DNA of 55,876 bases, taken from contig JAUXYI010000018.1 of NCBI GenBank assembly GCA_030694425.1, positions 1-55,876 of the forward strand, written 5' to 3'. The notes under the pieces are model-generated. The model did no database searches, was not told the DNA's origin, and saw only the letters and a program-made list of their open reading frames with translations. This DNA is from Thermodesulfovibrionia bacterium. Its GTDB lineage: Bacteria; Nitrospirota; Thermodesulfovibrionia; UBA6902; BMS3Bbin08. Positions 6,416-11,826 of this stretch are shown here, piece by piece. Position numbers and translations under genes: made by a program. Position 1 is the first letter of the stretch. Each line of letters begins with the position of its first letter.

Positions 6416-6706
6416 TTAAACCCTTGCTTCTTCAGCATCAAATTTAACCGCAGGGACTGAAATTTTTGGTGATTTGGCAATTCGCTTTGAATTTTCTATT
6501 AATTTTAAAATTAAGCGTCCGACGTCAGCCTTAACAACCTTTTCTCTACAACGTGGACACACACCGGCAGGAATACCTTCTACAATAACAAGTTTCCCTC
6601 GTAACCAAAAATCCTGTTTGATAAGTTTTTCCTGCATCTGAGTGCCGCAAATTTCACATTCGCCATAATTATATTTTATTTTTTTTCTCATAGGTTTATT
6701 CCTCAT
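6416..6706 (-). CDS. YgiT-type zinc-finger (MqsA N-terminal-like) antitoxin
   Basis: 96 residues with two CxxC pairs, CEIC near 17-20 and CPRC near 51-54, in the YgiT/MqsA zinc-finger layout (GVCPRCREKVV). It lacks the C-terminal helix-turn-helix of full MqsA, as many short relatives do. Its ATG overlaps the stop of the DUF4258 gene, the usual toxin-first order of these pairs. A second copy of this pair, with the toxin truncated, occurs at 45837-46219. Confidence 0.8.
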   Translation of the reverse strand: MRNKPMRKKIKYNYGECEICGTQMQEKLIKQDFWLRGKLVIVEGIPAGVCPRCREKVVKADVGRLILKLIENSKRIAKSPKISVPAVKFDAEEARV

Positions 6707-6978
6707 AAGGCATAAGTTGTGATTAATAATAATTTCCCAGTGCTTTTAATTCTACAAATAATTGCTATTTCTCTTCCATTAGTTGCGGGACCAAGAACCT
6801 CATAACGTATTCCCCTTGGGTCGCGTGTAAATCTGCGATTTACTTTGCCGTTGTAAATTGCCATTTCAATATCCTCAAAAGTAAGATTGTCGTTAACCAT
6901 TTCTTCAAAAAAATGTGGAATTGTAAACTCATATTCCTGCTTTCTTATTTTTTCTCTGATAGTGTGAATAATAGCCAA
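6703..6978 (-). CDS. DUF4258 protein, probable toxin partner
   Basis: 91 residues, beginning with TTG and preceded by AGAGG. The sequence has the DUF4258 pattern: I-R-x-K-I, then F-T-I-P-H-F-F-E-E-M, I-x-x-A-I-Y-N-G, R-x-Y-x-V-x-G, I-I-C-R and a final LLITTYAL. DUF4258 belongs to the RelE/MqsR-like toxin fold group by family association; activity here is inference. It forms an ATGA overlap with the YgiT-type gene. The pair lies beside the four-gene membrane module but is separated from it by about 200 bases. Confidence 0.75.
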   Translation of the reverse strand: MAIIHTIREKIRKQEYEFTIPHFFEEMVNDNLTFEDIEMAIYNGKVNRRFTRDPRGIRYEVLGPATNGREIAIICRIKSTGKLLLITTYAL

Positions 6979-7185: not shown

Positions 7186-8109
7186 TTAACGCCTACGCTC
7201 GTATTTATAAAAAAAATCTTCAACGCCCCAACGTAGACGACGTTCTAAAGGCGCTTGGGTAGCTGTGCTTTTTATATAAACATAATGCCGACATTCTGGA
7301 TTTCTCTTACGACTCCATTGATATATTGGGAAAGCTTTCTCTTTAAATTCTGTTAAAGATTGCAAGGGAGATTCTCTAATAAAATTATCTATGCCAGGTA
7401 ATTTAAGAGCATCCTCTTCTCTTTCAAGTGACCATGCTTTTTTTGTAATTAAACCCTCATCTGAGATAGCAATATCCAGAAAAAATTGAATTTCACCTGT
7501 TGTTTCATTTACCCAGCATGGAGGATAGTCACGACCACCATGTGCTTCAAGCTGTTTCTGAAAGAAAGCGAGCTGTCCTCTTATGTCTTTAAGTTCGTTA
7601 TCTTTTTCTGTGTTATACTTATCAAAATCTTTAATTTTTTCCAAGAGGTTTTGCTCATTATTGTTATCGCCCCCTTCTTTTTCAGTAATTTTTTTAAGCT
7701 GATTTTTTAAAGCCAATGCAGTCATTATTTCTTCTTGTAATATATTGTCCTTGTCCGCTTTTTTTTGAATCATGTTTTTAATTTCAGTCAAAATAGATAA
7801 TTCGGCTTCAAGATTCTCTATTTTTTGTTTCAGATGCTCATTTTCTGCTTGGGTGTCTATTTTCCTTATTAATTCAGACAGTATTTCATCAGGTTTAGTG
7901 CTTCCGCTTTCTTTTAAGACACTGTGAATTTTTTGAAGCATTTGAGCTGTTGACTGTTCTTTCCTTGCTATTTCTTCACGTTGCTTTGTTATCTCAGGTA
8001 TTTGCCGATCTTTCAACCCGATAAATAAAATCAGTATGAAAATTATTATAAAGGCTATTTCTGTTATTGAAAGAGGGAAAACCTGCCCAGTTTGTTTTTT
8101 AGAAAACAT
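7186..8109 (-). CDS. Single-TM coiled-coil protein, MotB/ZorB-like N-terminus (fourth gene of membrane module)
   Basis: 307 residues. One N-terminal membrane helix about 12-32 (FPLSITEIAFIIIFILILF) carries an acidic residue, Glu17, at its start, as MotB, ExbD and ZorB carry an Asp. A long predicted coiled coil covers about 40-190. A distinct C-terminal domain, about 193-307, starts YPPCWVNETTGEIQFFLDI and ends with CRHYVYIKS and VEDFFYKYE. It does not look like OmpA or a peptidoglycan-binding domain, and I cannot name it. Last gene of a same-strand group of four; 49 bases separate it from the MotA/TolQ-like gene. A role as the pore-lining partner of that protein is inference. Confidence 0.8.
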   Translation of the reverse strand: MFSKKQTGQVFPLSITEIAFIIIFILILFIGLKDRQIPEITKQREEIARKEQSTAQMLQKIHSVLKESGSTKPDEILSELIRKIDTQAENEHLKQKIENLEAELSILTEIKNMIQKKADKDNILQEEIMTALALKNQLKKITEKEGGDNNNEQNLLEKIKDFDKYNTEKDNELKDIRGQLAFFQKQLEAHGGRDYPPCWVNETTGEIQFFLDIAISDEGLITKKAWSLEREEDALKLPGIDNFIRESPLQSLTEFKEKAFPIYQWSRKRNPECRHYVYIKSTATQAPLERRLRWGVEDFFYKYERRR

Positions 8110-8158
8110 TTTTAAGTAGTAGGATAAATATTTGCTGAATTTTAGGTCAAAATAAGAG

Positions 8159-9493
8159 TTATCTTCTCAAAAAACCAAAGATTCCTCTGCCTATTACATC
8201 TTTCATGCTTGATTGAATTAAATCATTATTGTTTTTTATAAGAGTCTGAATTAGTTCAATGCTTTTTGACAATTCTTTTTGAAAAATAAGTAACTGGTCA
8301 GATGTTGTTTTGGAAATATTAAAAAACTCTGGTGCTCCTTTTATTAAATTTGATGTTACCATTTGTCCCTCTGTAACATTTTGTATTTTATCGTTAAGTT
8401 GTTGCGTCTGAATGTTAATATTTGCCATAGATTCACTAATACTATTTTTAATAGAAATTGATAAATTATCTATTGTCTTTGTATAGTGGTCAACTATTTT
8501 TAAGATTTGTTCTTGTCCTGCAATTGTGTTATTAATTTTATCTATTAGTGCAGGTGTGTCATTAAAACTTTTTACTATTTTTTCAAAGGCTTTGGAAATC
8601 TTCCCTGACCATGAGCGTAAATCTGTGGTAAGATTTGTTACTTCGTTGCCAATACTACCAGAGCCTTTTTTAAGGGTTTCAGATAGATTTGAAATGTCAG
8701 AGGTTATTAAGTTAATTTCCTTTTTTAAATTGTCAACAGGTTCTTGCATTATTTTTACAAAATAATCGCCGGGCAAGTTCATTTCTTGAATTTTAGAATT
8801 TAAAGTTGCAGCACTTTTTGTTAGCTCTTCTTCAAATTTCTTTGTTGTTTCAATTATTGAGTCGGAGACGGTTTTCATTGCAGTAGTGAACTGTTCGGCA
8901 ATTTTAGCGTTGTCATCGTTAATTTTTTTAAATATTTCAGACAAATTTTCTGTATATTTTTCTGTTGTAATATTGATTTGGGTTGTTACTTTATTTGAAT
9001 ATGTGTAAACGTCTTCATGAAGACGTTTTATTTTTTCAACAAATATTTCTAAATGAATCTGAAAAGTCTTTGCAGTATCTATTAGGCTATCTTCTATTGT
9101 CTGTTTAACTTCTTGGAGGTCTTTTTTAAAGTTAACTATATATACCCTTGCCCCCATGCCTAAGAGGGTACTTACCATTGCAGCTCCAAAACGAGCGGCA
9201 ATTCTCTCAAATTTCAAACCGGCATCAGGCAAATCAAAGAGTATTAATATTATTGTGCTTATGGTAAAAAGGAAACCAAGGTAGTAACAGCTATCGCCAA
9301 ACTTTTCATCTGAGATATCATCCGGATGTCTTTTAACACCAATAATAATGTAAGCAATCATTAATGTTATAGGGATTGTTAAGCCAAAAATCCAAGGGTC
9401 ATTAATCAACCATCCGATAACAGATGAGGAAATTTTTAATGTTATTGTTATGAAAAATATTTTAGAAATTGGAATTTGCTTAAGTTGTTTCAT
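8159..9493 (-). CDS. Four-TM protein with long coiled-coil tail, MotA/TolQ/ZorA-like (third gene of module)
   Basis: 444 residues. Likely membrane helices at about 9-30, 33-53, 69-88 and 99-120; the last (ARFGAAMVSTLLGMGARVYI) is rich in Gly, Ala and Ser/Thr in the manner of the pore helices of MotA/TolQ/ExbB. The remaining 320 residues are a soluble, heptad-rich tail with many Asn, Thr and Ser, reminiscent of the long cytoplasmic tail of ZorA in Zorya defence. The last residues are basic (GRGIFGFLRR). The vWA-like gene ends 10 bases upstream. The comparison with stator proteins rests on topology and residue type, not on a clear signature. Confidence 0.8.
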   Translation of the reverse strand: MKQLKQIPISKIFFITITLKISSSVIGWLINDPWIFGLTIPITLMIAYIIIGVKRHPDDISDEKFGDSCYYLGFLFTISTIILILFDLPDAGLKFERIAARFGAAMVSTLLGMGARVYIVNFKKDLQEVKQTIEDSLIDTAKTFQIHLEIFVEKIKRLHEDVYTYSNKVTTQINITTEKYTENLSEIFKKINDDNAKIAEQFTTAMKTVSDSIIETTKKFEEELTKSAATLNSKIQEMNLPGDYFVKIMQEPVDNLKKEINLITSDISNLSETLKKGSGSIGNEVTNLTTDLRSWSGKISKAFEKIVKSFNDTPALIDKINNTIAGQEQILKIVDHYTKTIDNLSISIKNSISESMANINIQTQQLNDKIQNVTEGQMVTSNLIKGAPEFFNISKTTSDQLLIFQKELSKSIELIQTLIKNNNDLIQSSMKDVIGRGIFGFLRR

Positions 9494-9503
9494 ACTATTA
9501 ATA

Positions 9504-10304
9504 TTATCCTTGTATAAGCTGAACTGTCGTTAACCTTGCTCCCATTTCTTTAAAATAATCCTCCCAGAACTTTGCATGGCCTCTATTTTGTAATGAGGGA
9601 GAATGCATTAAATAAGCTATTTCGACTTCAACATCAGCAAGGTTAGTTCTTACCTTTTTAAAGTAATCAGTCTGCTTGAATTGTTGAAAATCTATCTTGT
9701 CTTTATATTGTGAATACATCAGTGTATTATGCAGCATGTCCGAGATTATAATTAATTTTTTCCCCCCTTTGATTGAATGTTTGCCAAATCCATCTATTGA
9801 GGCAATTTGAAGCATTTCCATAATAGGAGAAAACTGGCGAGGTTGTGGTGAATCAAAAAAATATTCTATCTCTTTAAATTCTTTTAAAAAGTTCTTATAA
9901 AGTTTTGCGTATTTTTCAGGGGCTTCCGTCCATGGGCTTTTTGTACTTCCATCGCCGGGGTTGCATTTATCAAAAATTGGCTCTGAGAATTTTGTAATGT
10001 CCTCATCAATTACGAAAATAGTTAATTGTTCTCCTGCATTAACCCTTTTTTTAACAATTTCATCCATGTAAGTATATAATGATTTCTGTTGAATAAAATT
10101 AAGCGGGGTTGTTCTATCTATTAACACAACGACATGTCCAAGTGCACCGGATTGAGGACAAAAGGACTCTGGGTTAGGTGGATTAGAACCTTGAAAATAT
10201 AAGTACGATGCTCCAATCACTATAAAAACAGTCAGGGATATTAGAACTATGGCATATATAATGTCTTTTTTACGCCTACCACCAGGACCTTTTGGCTCTC
10301 GCAT
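9504..10304 (-). CDS. Membrane-anchored vWA-like protein (second gene of module)
   Basis: 266 residues. A basic N-terminus (KGPGGRRKKD) and one membrane helix about 15-37 precede a domain with a von Willebrand A-like plan: VVVLIDRTTPL at 58-68 as the first strand with D63, an LTIFVIDE strand, and KLIIISDMLHNT at 183-194 with D189. The metal-site motif is D-R-T-T rather than the classical DxSxS, so metal binding is doubtful. Its ATG overlaps the stop of the upstream gene in a TAATG, so the two are probably translationally coupled. Function unknown; a stress- or phage-related complex is possible from context. Confidence 0.8.
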   Translation of the reverse strand: MREPKGPGGRRKKDIIYAIVLISLTVFIVIGASYLYFQGSNPPNPESFCPQSGALGHVVVLIDRTTPLNFIQQKSLYTYMDEIVKKRVNAGEQLTIFVIDEDITKFSEPIFDKCNPGDGSTKSPWTEAPEKYAKLYKNFLKEFKEIEYFFDSPQPRQFSPIMEMLQIASIDGFGKHSIKGGKKLIIISDMLHNTLMYSQYKDKIDFQQFKQTDYFKKVRTNLADVEVEIAYLMHSPSLQNRGHAKFWEDYFKEMGARLTTVQLIQG

Positions 10305-11755
10305 TACACCGCTCCAATACTATCGCCATAAAAAATATCTTCTGGTGATATTTTTTTATACTCGTTAACAAATGTTGCTTGAATATCTTCTTTAATTTTT
10401 AAAATTTGAGAACTTAAAGTTTGAATTTCCTTATGTCGCACAGCATATTTTTGTTCATCATCTTTGCTGCTGAAATCCGGAATTGTAAAACGAGTTAGAA
10501 TGTAATCGTCGTTAAAATACTTTGGCATAGGAGTACTCCTGTGCAGTTGATTAATGCTTCTGAAAGTTTGCAACAACGCTGTTTTACAATTTTCGGCATC
10601 ATTAAAGGAAGCATCCAGTTTTGTTTTTGTTGAACTTTTATTTTGTATTGCTTCGTATAACTGCAACAGGTCATTTTGAGACTTGTTTGAAGCTTTTTCT
10701 AAGTCCTCCAGAGATGATTTCTTTAAATTCTCCAACTGGGTACGAATATCATCAATCTCTATTTCGTAATCCTGCTTGGCTTGTACATATTGTTTATGTA
10801 TTTTTCCATAACCCGGGTATTTATCGTCCATAGAATAGGTGTCATAACCTGCACCTGTTGCGAAAATTAGACTTAAAATAAATAAGAACCATGAGTGTAC
10901 CTCTTTGAGACCAAAAGCATTATTACGTATATTTTCCAGTGCTAATCGCGCCGCATTATCAGGATCACTGCCTAAAGCATCACGATAATGAGCTATTGTT
11001 AATGAAATGACTATAGCTATAATAAAAGCCAATATGATAAAGAATATACCAAACATTTTTCTAAGCACAGATACATGGTTAATTTGTGAAATAAAAAAAT
11101 AACCCCATAGAGACGCAATAGAGACATTAATGAATGCAAAGACAGCAGCATATATGAAACCTTGTATAAGCCCTCCCCAAATACCTTTCTGAAAAAAAAC
11201 TGCGTTGGCTGCTGCTTCAGCAATTATCAGAAAGGCCAATATTGCCCAGCTTAAAACCAGACGAGTACCCGTTTGATAATAAGGATCACGCTCTAATTTA
11301 CTGGCTTCTTTAAAACGATTAAATTCAACTTTTCTATTTCGAGCATCTGATGCTAACCCTTTAAGCAAGGAATCATTTCCAGTAAGAATTTTATTTGCCT
11401 TATTTTCAAAATTAGTCTTGGCAGTACTAATGTTGCTGATATGTGAAAAGATACTCATATCTAATTGATTAATATCTTTATTGATTACAGTTAAACGGTC
11501 TTTTGCCCAGTTCGTATAATCCTGTCGGGCTTTCTGGACAATTTGAATAATTTGTGCTTCAATTCCACATAGTGCTGTTGCATCAGATGGAGGAATGTTT
11601 GCAGAGCCGAGTCGCTTGCCTTCTGCTTCAATATTCAATTCTTCAGCTACTTTCTCTACAGTTAAAGGATTTGAGATAGGGTGAAATGGTTTAGGGGACT
11701 CACTTGGATTATGGATTAGCCATTTAAGAATTTTTTTTATTAATTCTTTCAACAT
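10304..11755 (-). CDS. Four-TM protein with flanking coiled coils (first gene of module)
   Basis: 483 residues. A soluble N-terminal half about 1-160 with helical heptads, four membrane helices at about 165-188 (containing AEAAANAVFF), 194-222, 234-256 and 288-306, then a short segment with DTYSMDDKYPGYGK, a second coiled-coil stretch about 320-390, and a C-terminal tail. I cannot assign a named family. It heads the operon, about 36 bases below a predicted promoter with an overlapping palindrome, and overlaps the vWA-like gene by one base. Confidence 0.8.
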   Translation of the reverse strand: MLKELIKKILKWLIHNPSESPKPFHPISNPLTVEKVAEELNIEAEGKRLGSANIPPSDATALCGIEAQIIQIVQKARQDYTNWAKDRLTVINKDINQLDMSIFSHISNISTAKTNFENKANKILTGNDSLLKGLASDARNRKVEFNRFKEASKLERDPYYQTGTRLVLSWAILAFLIIAEAAANAVFFQKGIWGGLIQGFIYAAVFAFINVSIASLWGYFFISQINHVSVLRKMFGIFFIILAFIIAIVISLTIAHYRDALGSDPDNAARLALENIRNNAFGLKEVHSWFLFILSLIFATGAGYDTYSMDDKYPGYGKIHKQYVQAKQDYEIEIDDIRTQLENLKKSSLEDLEKASNKSQNDLLQLYEAIQNKSSTKTKLDASFNDAENCKTALLQTFRSINQLHRSTPMPKYFNDDYILTRFTIPDFSSKDDEQKYAVRHKEIQTLSSQILKIKEDIQATFVNEYKKISPEDIFYGDSIGAV

Positions 11756-11789
11756 TTAAGCGGTTTAATTACTAAAACTAAGGATATTT

Positions 11790-11815
11790 TACAGGCATAT
11801 TAAAATATGCCTGTA
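11790..11815. promoter_or_regulatory. Palindromic operator overlapping the module promoter
   Basis: Two perfect 12-base arms, TACAGGCATATT and AATATGCCTGTA, separated by two bases. The palindrome covers the -10 box and most of the spacer of the predicted promoter, the classical place for a repressor site. It could also form a hairpin at the end of the deoB transcript, but no T-run follows it. Confidence 0.6.
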
Positions 11816-11826
11816 TGCGATGTCAA
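11799..11826 (-). promoter_or_regulatory. Sigma-70 promoter of the four-gene module
   Basis: On the minus strand, a perfect TTGACA (-35, positions 11826-11821) is followed after 16 bases by TTTAAT (-10, 11804-11799; five of six consensus bases). It lies just past the deoB stop codon and fires toward the four-gene module, giving a leader of about 35-40 bases. Confidence 0.65.

Follow-up and report, generated by a model that had tools for sequence, protein, structure and literature searches.

A conserved four-gene membrane module with stator-like architecture and a recurring link to thermonucleases

The window analysed here (the whole stretch of 55,876 nucleotides, from a Thermodesulfovibrionia bacterium) contains four closely packed genes, A to D, for membrane and coiled-coil proteins. 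They raise the question of whether such a set encodes an ion-driven machine comparable to the Zorya defence system, as the initial annotation had inferred from a presumed ZorAB-like channel. The genes lie in the order A-B-C-D on the minus strand (span 11755-7186); A and B share 1 base, while B and C are spaced by 10 bases and C and D by 49, exactly as first annotated:

Gene A, 10304..11755, minus strand: 483 aa; N-terminal coiled-coil region, four transmembrane (TM) helices, C-terminal coiled coil (ORF, hydropathy, family profile)
Gene B, 9504..10304, minus strand: 266 aa; one TM helix, then a predicted vWA-fold domain (ORF, AF2, Foldseek)
Gene C, 8159..9493, minus strand: 444 aa; four TM helices, then a coiled-coil tail of ~320 residues (ORF, hydropathy)
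Gene D, 7186..8109, minus strand: 307 aa; one TM helix, long coiled coil, C-terminal domain (ORF)

Hydropathy gave the same TM counts as the initial annotation (four, one, four and one), and the layout of C first described agrees with both ORF and hydropathy. Searches of the four proteins with Pfam, NCBIfam and PADLOC returned nothing beyond coiled-coil noise and sub-threshold matches. The module has a foreign base composition (GC 33% and GC3 0.25-0.28, against 40% and 0.33-0.47), and its neighbours are a DUF4258/MqsA-like pair and a gene that was judged by eye to be phosphopentomutase-like.

Relatives were collected with A alone, because a single-protein scan of genome contigs with B gave nothing and B proved too variable in alignment. 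Whether the four families occur together as a unit across genomes had been named as a check, and they do: at 44 of the 46 loci found, B, C and D accompany A in the same order, beyond chance, confirming that the four genes are one conserved unit. These loci are mostly from Alphaproteobacteria, with one Acidobacteria MAG and one Bacteroidota-labelled MAG. The same order was seen in a genome of the same phylum as the window (G149) and at all five plasmid loci found with B. Many copies are located on large conjugative or mobilizable plasmids, many of them rhizobial, and a strong match to B was present in merely 2 of 396 same-phylum genomes. We propose that this patchy distribution reflects recent acquisition, and that the module moves horizontally. 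Three loci (L017-L019) carry the C-D pair without A and B. No description of the gene set was found in the literature searched, in which subscription papers are thinly covered; within that scope the module is, as first suggested, an undescribed membrane system, conserved across several phyla and including many rhizobial plasmids.

The TM helices of A span residues 170-304 (bases 10844-11248, by hydropathy), and a D-x-YPG motif is conserved in its family. No Pfam, NCBIfam or PADLOC family matched A, and a match to ZorE2 at E 0.017 was rejected as coil. B carries a TM helix at residues 15-33, positive side first, followed by a domain at approximately residues 53-266 (bases 9504-10148). Its AF2 model (pLDDT 90.1) matched the LFA-1 I domain, TFIIH subunits, VWF A1 and Rpn10 in Foldseek, the top solved structures being mostly vWA/I domains (TM-score by query length 0.32-0.44 among the 50 best), so that modelling confirms the earlier assignment of a vWA-like fold. 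Invariant residues in B are Cys49/Cys114, Asp63 and Asp189; with Thr65, which is also present, the two aspartates are candidate residues of a MIDAS metal site, and the full DxSxS motif is absent. Charge bias places the vWA domain on the outer side in 35 of 36 proteins, and we predict that it is TM-anchored and periplasmic.

The TM helix of D (residues 13-31) contains Glu17 (bases 8059-8061), and this glutamate is kept in all 35 D proteins, although these share little identity overall; a distant relative (L145) has Asp at this position, and two of the three partners lacking A and B (L017 and L019) have Gln. An OmpA domain (PF00691) follows in 22 of the 35, through which D also matched PomB in a PDB search. 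The initial description of D as a single-TM protein with an acidic residue and a coiled coil, MotB-like in architecture, is thereby borne out at the family level. In the window, D instead ends in another domain (bases 7186-7536) with conserved Cys198-Trp199 and Cys273-Arg274, and neither Pfam nor structure comparison detected an OmpA or peptidoglycan-binding domain. The model of this protein has low overall confidence, but its C-terminal domain is well modelled (pLDDT ~84-93 for residues 200-300); the model matched no known structure at E<=0.001.

In C, the TM helices are found within residues 12-120, and the tail (residues 122-444, bases 8159-9130), which gave coiled-coil matches only, would extend on the cytoplasmic side. 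Invariant threonines are located in TM3 (Thr77, bases 9263-9265) and TM4 (Thr109, bases 9167-9169), and are candidates for a Ser/Thr ring facing the acidic residue. Homology of C to known stator proteins could not be supported. Pfam MotA_ExbB (PF01618) scored 16.3-16.4 bits, under its gathering cut-off of 22.9, with a best E of 0.0052 among 35 C members. Against TolQ/ExbB/MotA/ZorA-like proteins, the C profile reached 15.9 in hhalign, where shuffled controls reached up to 22.1, and HMM scores equalled those of shuffles. The ZorAB-like channel of the initial annotation is therefore not upheld as a matter of descent, and the module is not Zorya; the stator reading of C and D rests on architecture, from which a stator-like assembly and an ion drive would follow. 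A search of the PDB with the whole-C profile returned apolipoproteins and other coils, which were discarded as composition, and C matches at four further loci (L005-L008) were false relatives, similar in the coil only. No relative of C was found in phage records.

No homology between C and the proton-channel superfamily could be detected, which leaves room for a passive reading, in which the complex is an envelope-spanning scaffold or mechanosensor without an ion drive. It would tie either a nuclease or a ligand of the vWA domain to peptidoglycan, the acidic residue would serve packing, and the resemblance of C-D to a stator would be superficial. The Gln-bearing partners and the lack of a peptidoglycan-binding domain in the window copy of D would fit such a scaffold. 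Strict retention of the glutamate in otherwise divergent proteins, its replacement by Asp in the distant relative, and the paired invariant threonines of C argue against it, and we consider it unlikely.

A nuclease was found to accompany many of the relatives. In 20 of 37 representative (tree-set) relatives, a gene for a thermonuclease (SNase) lies within ~1.3 kb of the module, where ~0.06 would be expected from the background density (53 in ~90 Mb, 15 such genomes); its placement switched repeatedly among them, the labels needing 11 or more changes along the tree of A. Two relatives (L135 and L150) encode natural D-SNase fusions of the form TM-coil-OmpA-SNase. The SNase is of a secreted type, and its catalytic residues are intact. 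Given the topology of D and the fusion behind the OmpA-like domain, it is predicted to act in the periplasm. About half of the representative relatives have no adjacent SNase, although several of their contigs end nearby; in the window, none is adjacent or fused to D, and three SNases are encoded on other contigs. The earlier statement that the set comes without a nuclease thus holds for the window copy and some others, but not for about half of the relatives, in which an SNase adjoins the module or is fused to D. The flanks of relatives, checked for known defence genes as first proposed, matched 61 PADLOC models, including RmrA, SduA, PD-Lambda-1, AbiEii and AbiLi, against 5 in a small control of five plasmid segments, with 14 RmrA models all matching the same two proteins. 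Taken together, the recurring link between module and SNase suggests a new way to destroy incoming foreign DNA.

The same features could belong to a Tol/Ton-like envelope or DNA-handling machine outside defence, energising a periplasmic task such as envelope repair, plasmid transfer, or the breakdown or uptake of extracellular DNA as a nutrient, with the SNase as a secreted scavenger. The OmpA-type domains, the secreted type and intact catalytic residues of the nuclease and the frequent location on conjugative or mobilizable plasmids are consistent with this. Patchy, recent acquisition, defence-type neighbours, and vWA and coiled-coil partners that differ from TolA/TonB count against it, making it quite improbable. 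That the module is a true, if diverged, Zorya system in which ZorA/ZorB homologues work with a different effector is very improbable indeed: the C tail matches PADLOC ZorA models (E ~1e-6 to 1e-5), but these matches and that to NCBIfam ZorA (NF033914; 18.5 bits, cut-off 190) cover coil only, neither PDB searches nor hhalign with the TM part found ZorA, and two extra subunits are retained at nearly all loci. PADLOC gave no ZorB match for D and no ZorC/D, ZorE or ZorF/G among the four genes, in agreement with the initial view that this is not classical Zorya. Matches to ZorA models elsewhere in same-phylum genomes were ordinary ZorAB-like pairs or coils.

Our preferred reading, to which we assign a probability of roughly 45%, is a mobile four-protein inner-membrane machine that works in the manner of ZorAB and licenses a nuclease to attack incoming DNA, most likely from phages; both the periplasmic side of the nuclease and the defence role are inferred. 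At its core would be C, contributing four TM helices and the long cytoplasmic tail, and D, contributing one TM helix whose acidic residue carries the ions, together with a periplasmic stalk, ending in an OmpA-like domain that would bind peptidoglycan or, in the window copy, in another periplasmic domain. The vWA domain of B may be a periplasmic sensing or docking part, and A would supply a second four-TM coiled-coil part. Disturbance of the envelope would let ions flow through C-D, moving tail and stalk and thereby licensing or positioning the nuclease. For roughly half of the relatives, this would be the putative periplasmic thermonuclease that adjoins the module or is fused to D. For the window copy, the nuclease may be supplied by another part of the genome, or a different effector may take its place. 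More tentatively, and as a rather doubtful extension, the module may represent a new class of defence machines, ion-driven and anchored in the envelope, with an evolutionary origin distinct from that of the MotA/ExbB/ZorA superfamily. Such a machine would link a vWA sensor to a periplasmic nuclease on a peptidoglycan-anchored stalk, and foreign DNA would be cut during its passage through the periplasm, ahead of its entry into the cytoplasm. Should C-D prove to be ion-driven and yet lack stator homology, the stator architecture would have originated independently. In the D-SNase fusions, a motor-like complex and a nuclease are linked within one polypeptide, so that the question of how Zorya couples motor to nuclease becomes testable.

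Like MotAB, TolQR and ExbBD (PF01618), C and D are a gene pair with a matching TM count and an acidic residue in the single-TM partner, and in most relatives D has the OmpA-type C-terminus of MotB. Unlike in these systems, C lacks a cytoplasmic domain in the TM2-TM3 loop and carries a long coiled tail, with PF01618 sub-threshold and profile comparison within noise. SNIPE consists of one membrane-associated nuclease with DUF4041; in both cases the nuclease would sit where DNA enters, whereas here it is an SNase tied to a four-protein machine. The vWA conflict systems (Kaur et al. 2020, PMC7159879), whose gene sets were compared without detail, likewise combine a vWA fold with other conflict parts, but no MoxR-type AAA or NTPase partner was found here, and the vWA domain of B is TM-anchored and predicted to be periplasmic. 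In Zorya (ZorAB plus ZorCD, ZorE or ZorFG), the Asp of ZorB packs against Ser/Thr of ZorA, and the ZorA tail and the peptidoglycan domain of ZorB are both needed (PMC11890865). The module differs in its TM Glu, its extra subunits A and B, and its thermonuclease, predicted to be extracytoplasmic, in place of a helicase or HNH effector. It shares with Zorya a multi-TM protein with a long, presumably cytoplasmic coiled tail beside a single-TM partner with an acidic residue, a peptidoglycan-binding domain on that partner in most relatives, an accessory distribution and a nuclease partner.

Four same-strand, closely packed genes make up the module, as the initial annotation had described, with a one-base overlap between A and B followed by gaps of 10 and 49 bases.

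Genes of the module in the window, with transmembrane (TM) helices by hydropathy
11755-10304, minus strand: gene A, open reading frame, 4 TM helices
10304-9504, minus strand: gene B, open reading frame, 1 TM helix
9493-8159, minus strand: gene C, open reading frame, 4 TM helices
8109-7186, minus strand: gene D, open reading frame, 1 TM helix

Searching genome contigs with A as the sole query yielded 46 loci, and B, C, and D were found in order at 44 of these, the exceptions being L061, in which A is cut short, and L067, which lacks C and D. Relatives of B were also found on 18 plasmids, mostly rhizobial, with the same A-B-C-D order at all five plasmid loci examined. Judged by this gene order, A-B-C-D is one unit, and the four families proposed to form a single system do occur together elsewhere. 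A profile of B matched 15 of the 289 genomes of Alphaproteobacteria (the class of the Rhizobium genome G323) and 7 of the 396 genomes of the window's phylum, strongly only in G000 and G149. The latter, from another class of that phylum, carries a full set adjoining phage-like genes and a thermonuclease gene of the staphylococcal nuclease type (SNase), while a genome of the window's order (G162) holds a full but diverged set (L145).

Diverged A-B pairs stand without recognizable C or D at L137, L138, L140, L142, and L144, which suggests that A and B are themselves a mobile core that combines with different partners. After two Mesorhizobium modules comes a conserved membrane protein of ~335-400 aa whose N-terminus resembles DUF4236 (L045, 12577-13584; L047, 12584-13792). 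In a same-class genome (L148, 4787-12221), a type III CRISPR-like group of Cas10/Cmr2 and RAMP genes is directly preceded by a distant A-B pair and a bacterial PH-domain protein.

The module looks to have been acquired horizontally by the window's genome, given its low third-position GC (0.25-0.28 in A-D versus 0.33-0.47 in twelve other window genes) and overall GC (33% versus 40%), the single copy of C in the genome, and the lack of any match to D among 40 close relatives. Directly downstream, a DUF4258 protein (Pfam, E = 5.6e-11) and an MqsA-like zinc-ribbon protein form a toxin-antitoxin-like pair (6416-6978, minus strand).

Co-occurrence near known defence genes, proposed as a check in the initial annotation, finds some support as well. 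Two proteins per side of 36 relatives (128 kept) were compared with PADLOC models at E ≤ 1e-8 and matched 61 of them, including RmrA, SduA, PD-Lambda-1, AbiEii, AbiLi, and capP, a count inflated by several models per protein. A small control of 107 proteins from five plasmid segments matched five models, four of the ATPase type, three of which were also on the flank list. These results give qualitative support for a defence-type neighbourhood of the relatives.

Of the 37 loci placed with the window copy on a tree of A, 20 have an SNase gene next to the module; from 53 SNase matches in ~90 Mb of 15 host genomes, ~0.06 would be expected by chance. Its position varies (upstream or downstream, either strand, mostly within 0.5 kb; ~0.8-1.3 kb from the module in most Mesorhizobium). 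The seven placement labels require at least 11 changes on the A tree, so the link was kept or remade through these shifts in gene order. Two D proteins, those of L135 (670 aa) and L150 (488 aa), continue past an OmpA-like region into a C-terminally fused SNase; the fusions look independent, as their D parts are very different (D profile E ~1e-11 versus ~1e-97). Most module-linked SNases retain the catalytic Arg, Asp, and Glu of staphylococcal nuclease, and many adjacent ones begin, by eye, with hydrophobic leaders. The SNase should face the periplasm, given the single TM helix of D and the binding of OmpA-like domains to peptidoglycan. The earlier statement that the set is without the Zorya nuclease, if read as the lack of any nuclease partner, holds for the window copy, which has no SNase nearby (the genome's three are all on other contigs), and for some others, but not for these relatives. 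One module without SNase adjoins a protein resembling, by eye, endonuclease/exonuclease/phosphatase-family nucleases (L063, 6749-7561, minus strand), for which a PDB sequence search gave no match, and on a Sinorhizobium plasmid a DUF4041 protein adjoins SNase and module (L015, 12518-13993).

No known family could be assigned to A, in which motifs around LALAHYR and DPYPG are kept across the aligned set. The vWA-like call for B was confirmed by an AlphaFold2 model (pLDDT 90, 33 sequences), whose best solved-structure matches were vWA and integrin I domains, TFIIH vWA subunits, and Rpn10. Invariant residues of B include two cysteines, Asp63, and Asp189, and the full MIDAS motif is absent from its sequence. 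In 35 of 36 sequences, charge is higher before the TM helix than behind it; by the positive-inside rule, the vWA domain should be periplasmic.

In D, the TM consensus is G-L-T-M-A-E-x-M-L-L-L-V-F, with the Glu invariant in 35/35 sequences and an Asp in the TM of the diverged L145 protein. A Pfam OmpA domain follows the coiled coil in 22 of 35 D proteins; in those of the window, L016, L063, L065, L066, L069, and L070, it is replaced by a common domain with conserved Cys-Trp and Cys-Arg. A model of the window's D matched no solved structure at E ≤ 0.001.

The relation of C to ZorAB, MotA, or ExbB was not borne out. Pfam MotA_ExbB scored 16.3 bits against the window's C (E = 0.0085; cut-off 22.9) and reached E ≤ 0.5 in 6 of 35 family members. 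Profile comparison gave a probability of 0.3% with same-phylum ZorA-like proteins and a score of 15.9 with TolQ/ExbB (shuffled columns, up to 22.1), and HMMs of TolQ, ExbB, MotA, and ZorA scored real and shuffled C equally, while true ZorA-like proteins of the phylum were easily recognized against ZorA structures. With scores below cut-off or within shuffles, stator homology of C is not shown; what speaks for a stator reading of C-D is the architecture, the pairing of the genes, the acidic residue that never varies, and the OmpA domain. C has a coiled-coil tail (residues 122-444), and its invariant residues include Thr77 (TM3) and Thr109 (TM4). Pairs homologous to C, and weakly to D, also occur without A and B; the acidic position in the partner's TM is Gln in L017 and L019 and Glu in L018.

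Coordinates of C-D pairs lacking A and B (genomes of the window's phylum)
L017: 7030-8953
L018: 6304-8233
L019: 7428-9438

By analogy, the best reading is a machine working like ZorAB, which would sense a disturbed envelope and then license or place a nuclease; in the relatives with SNase, this nuclease would lie outside the cytoplasm. Competing with it are two other readings: a machine serving the envelope or DNA uptake, and a scaffold that is anchored but passive. When membership was tested, the module fell outside MotA/TolQ/ExbB and also outside Zorya, in agreement with its description as not classical Zorya. No account of the A-B-C-D set was found in the literature searched. The best explanation, the ZorAB-like machine, still works like a known kind of system; the module would be categorically new should C-D turn out to have no relation to stators and the nuclease to act in the periplasm. 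In Zorya, an aspartate of ZorB packs against Ser/Thr of ZorA, and defence needs both the tail of ZorA and the peptidoglycan-binding domain of ZorB (PMC11890865). The module has the same kinds of element, namely an acidic TM residue, a tail, and, in relatives, a peptidoglycan-binding-type domain, and adds a vWA protein (B) and a second coiled-coil membrane protein (A).
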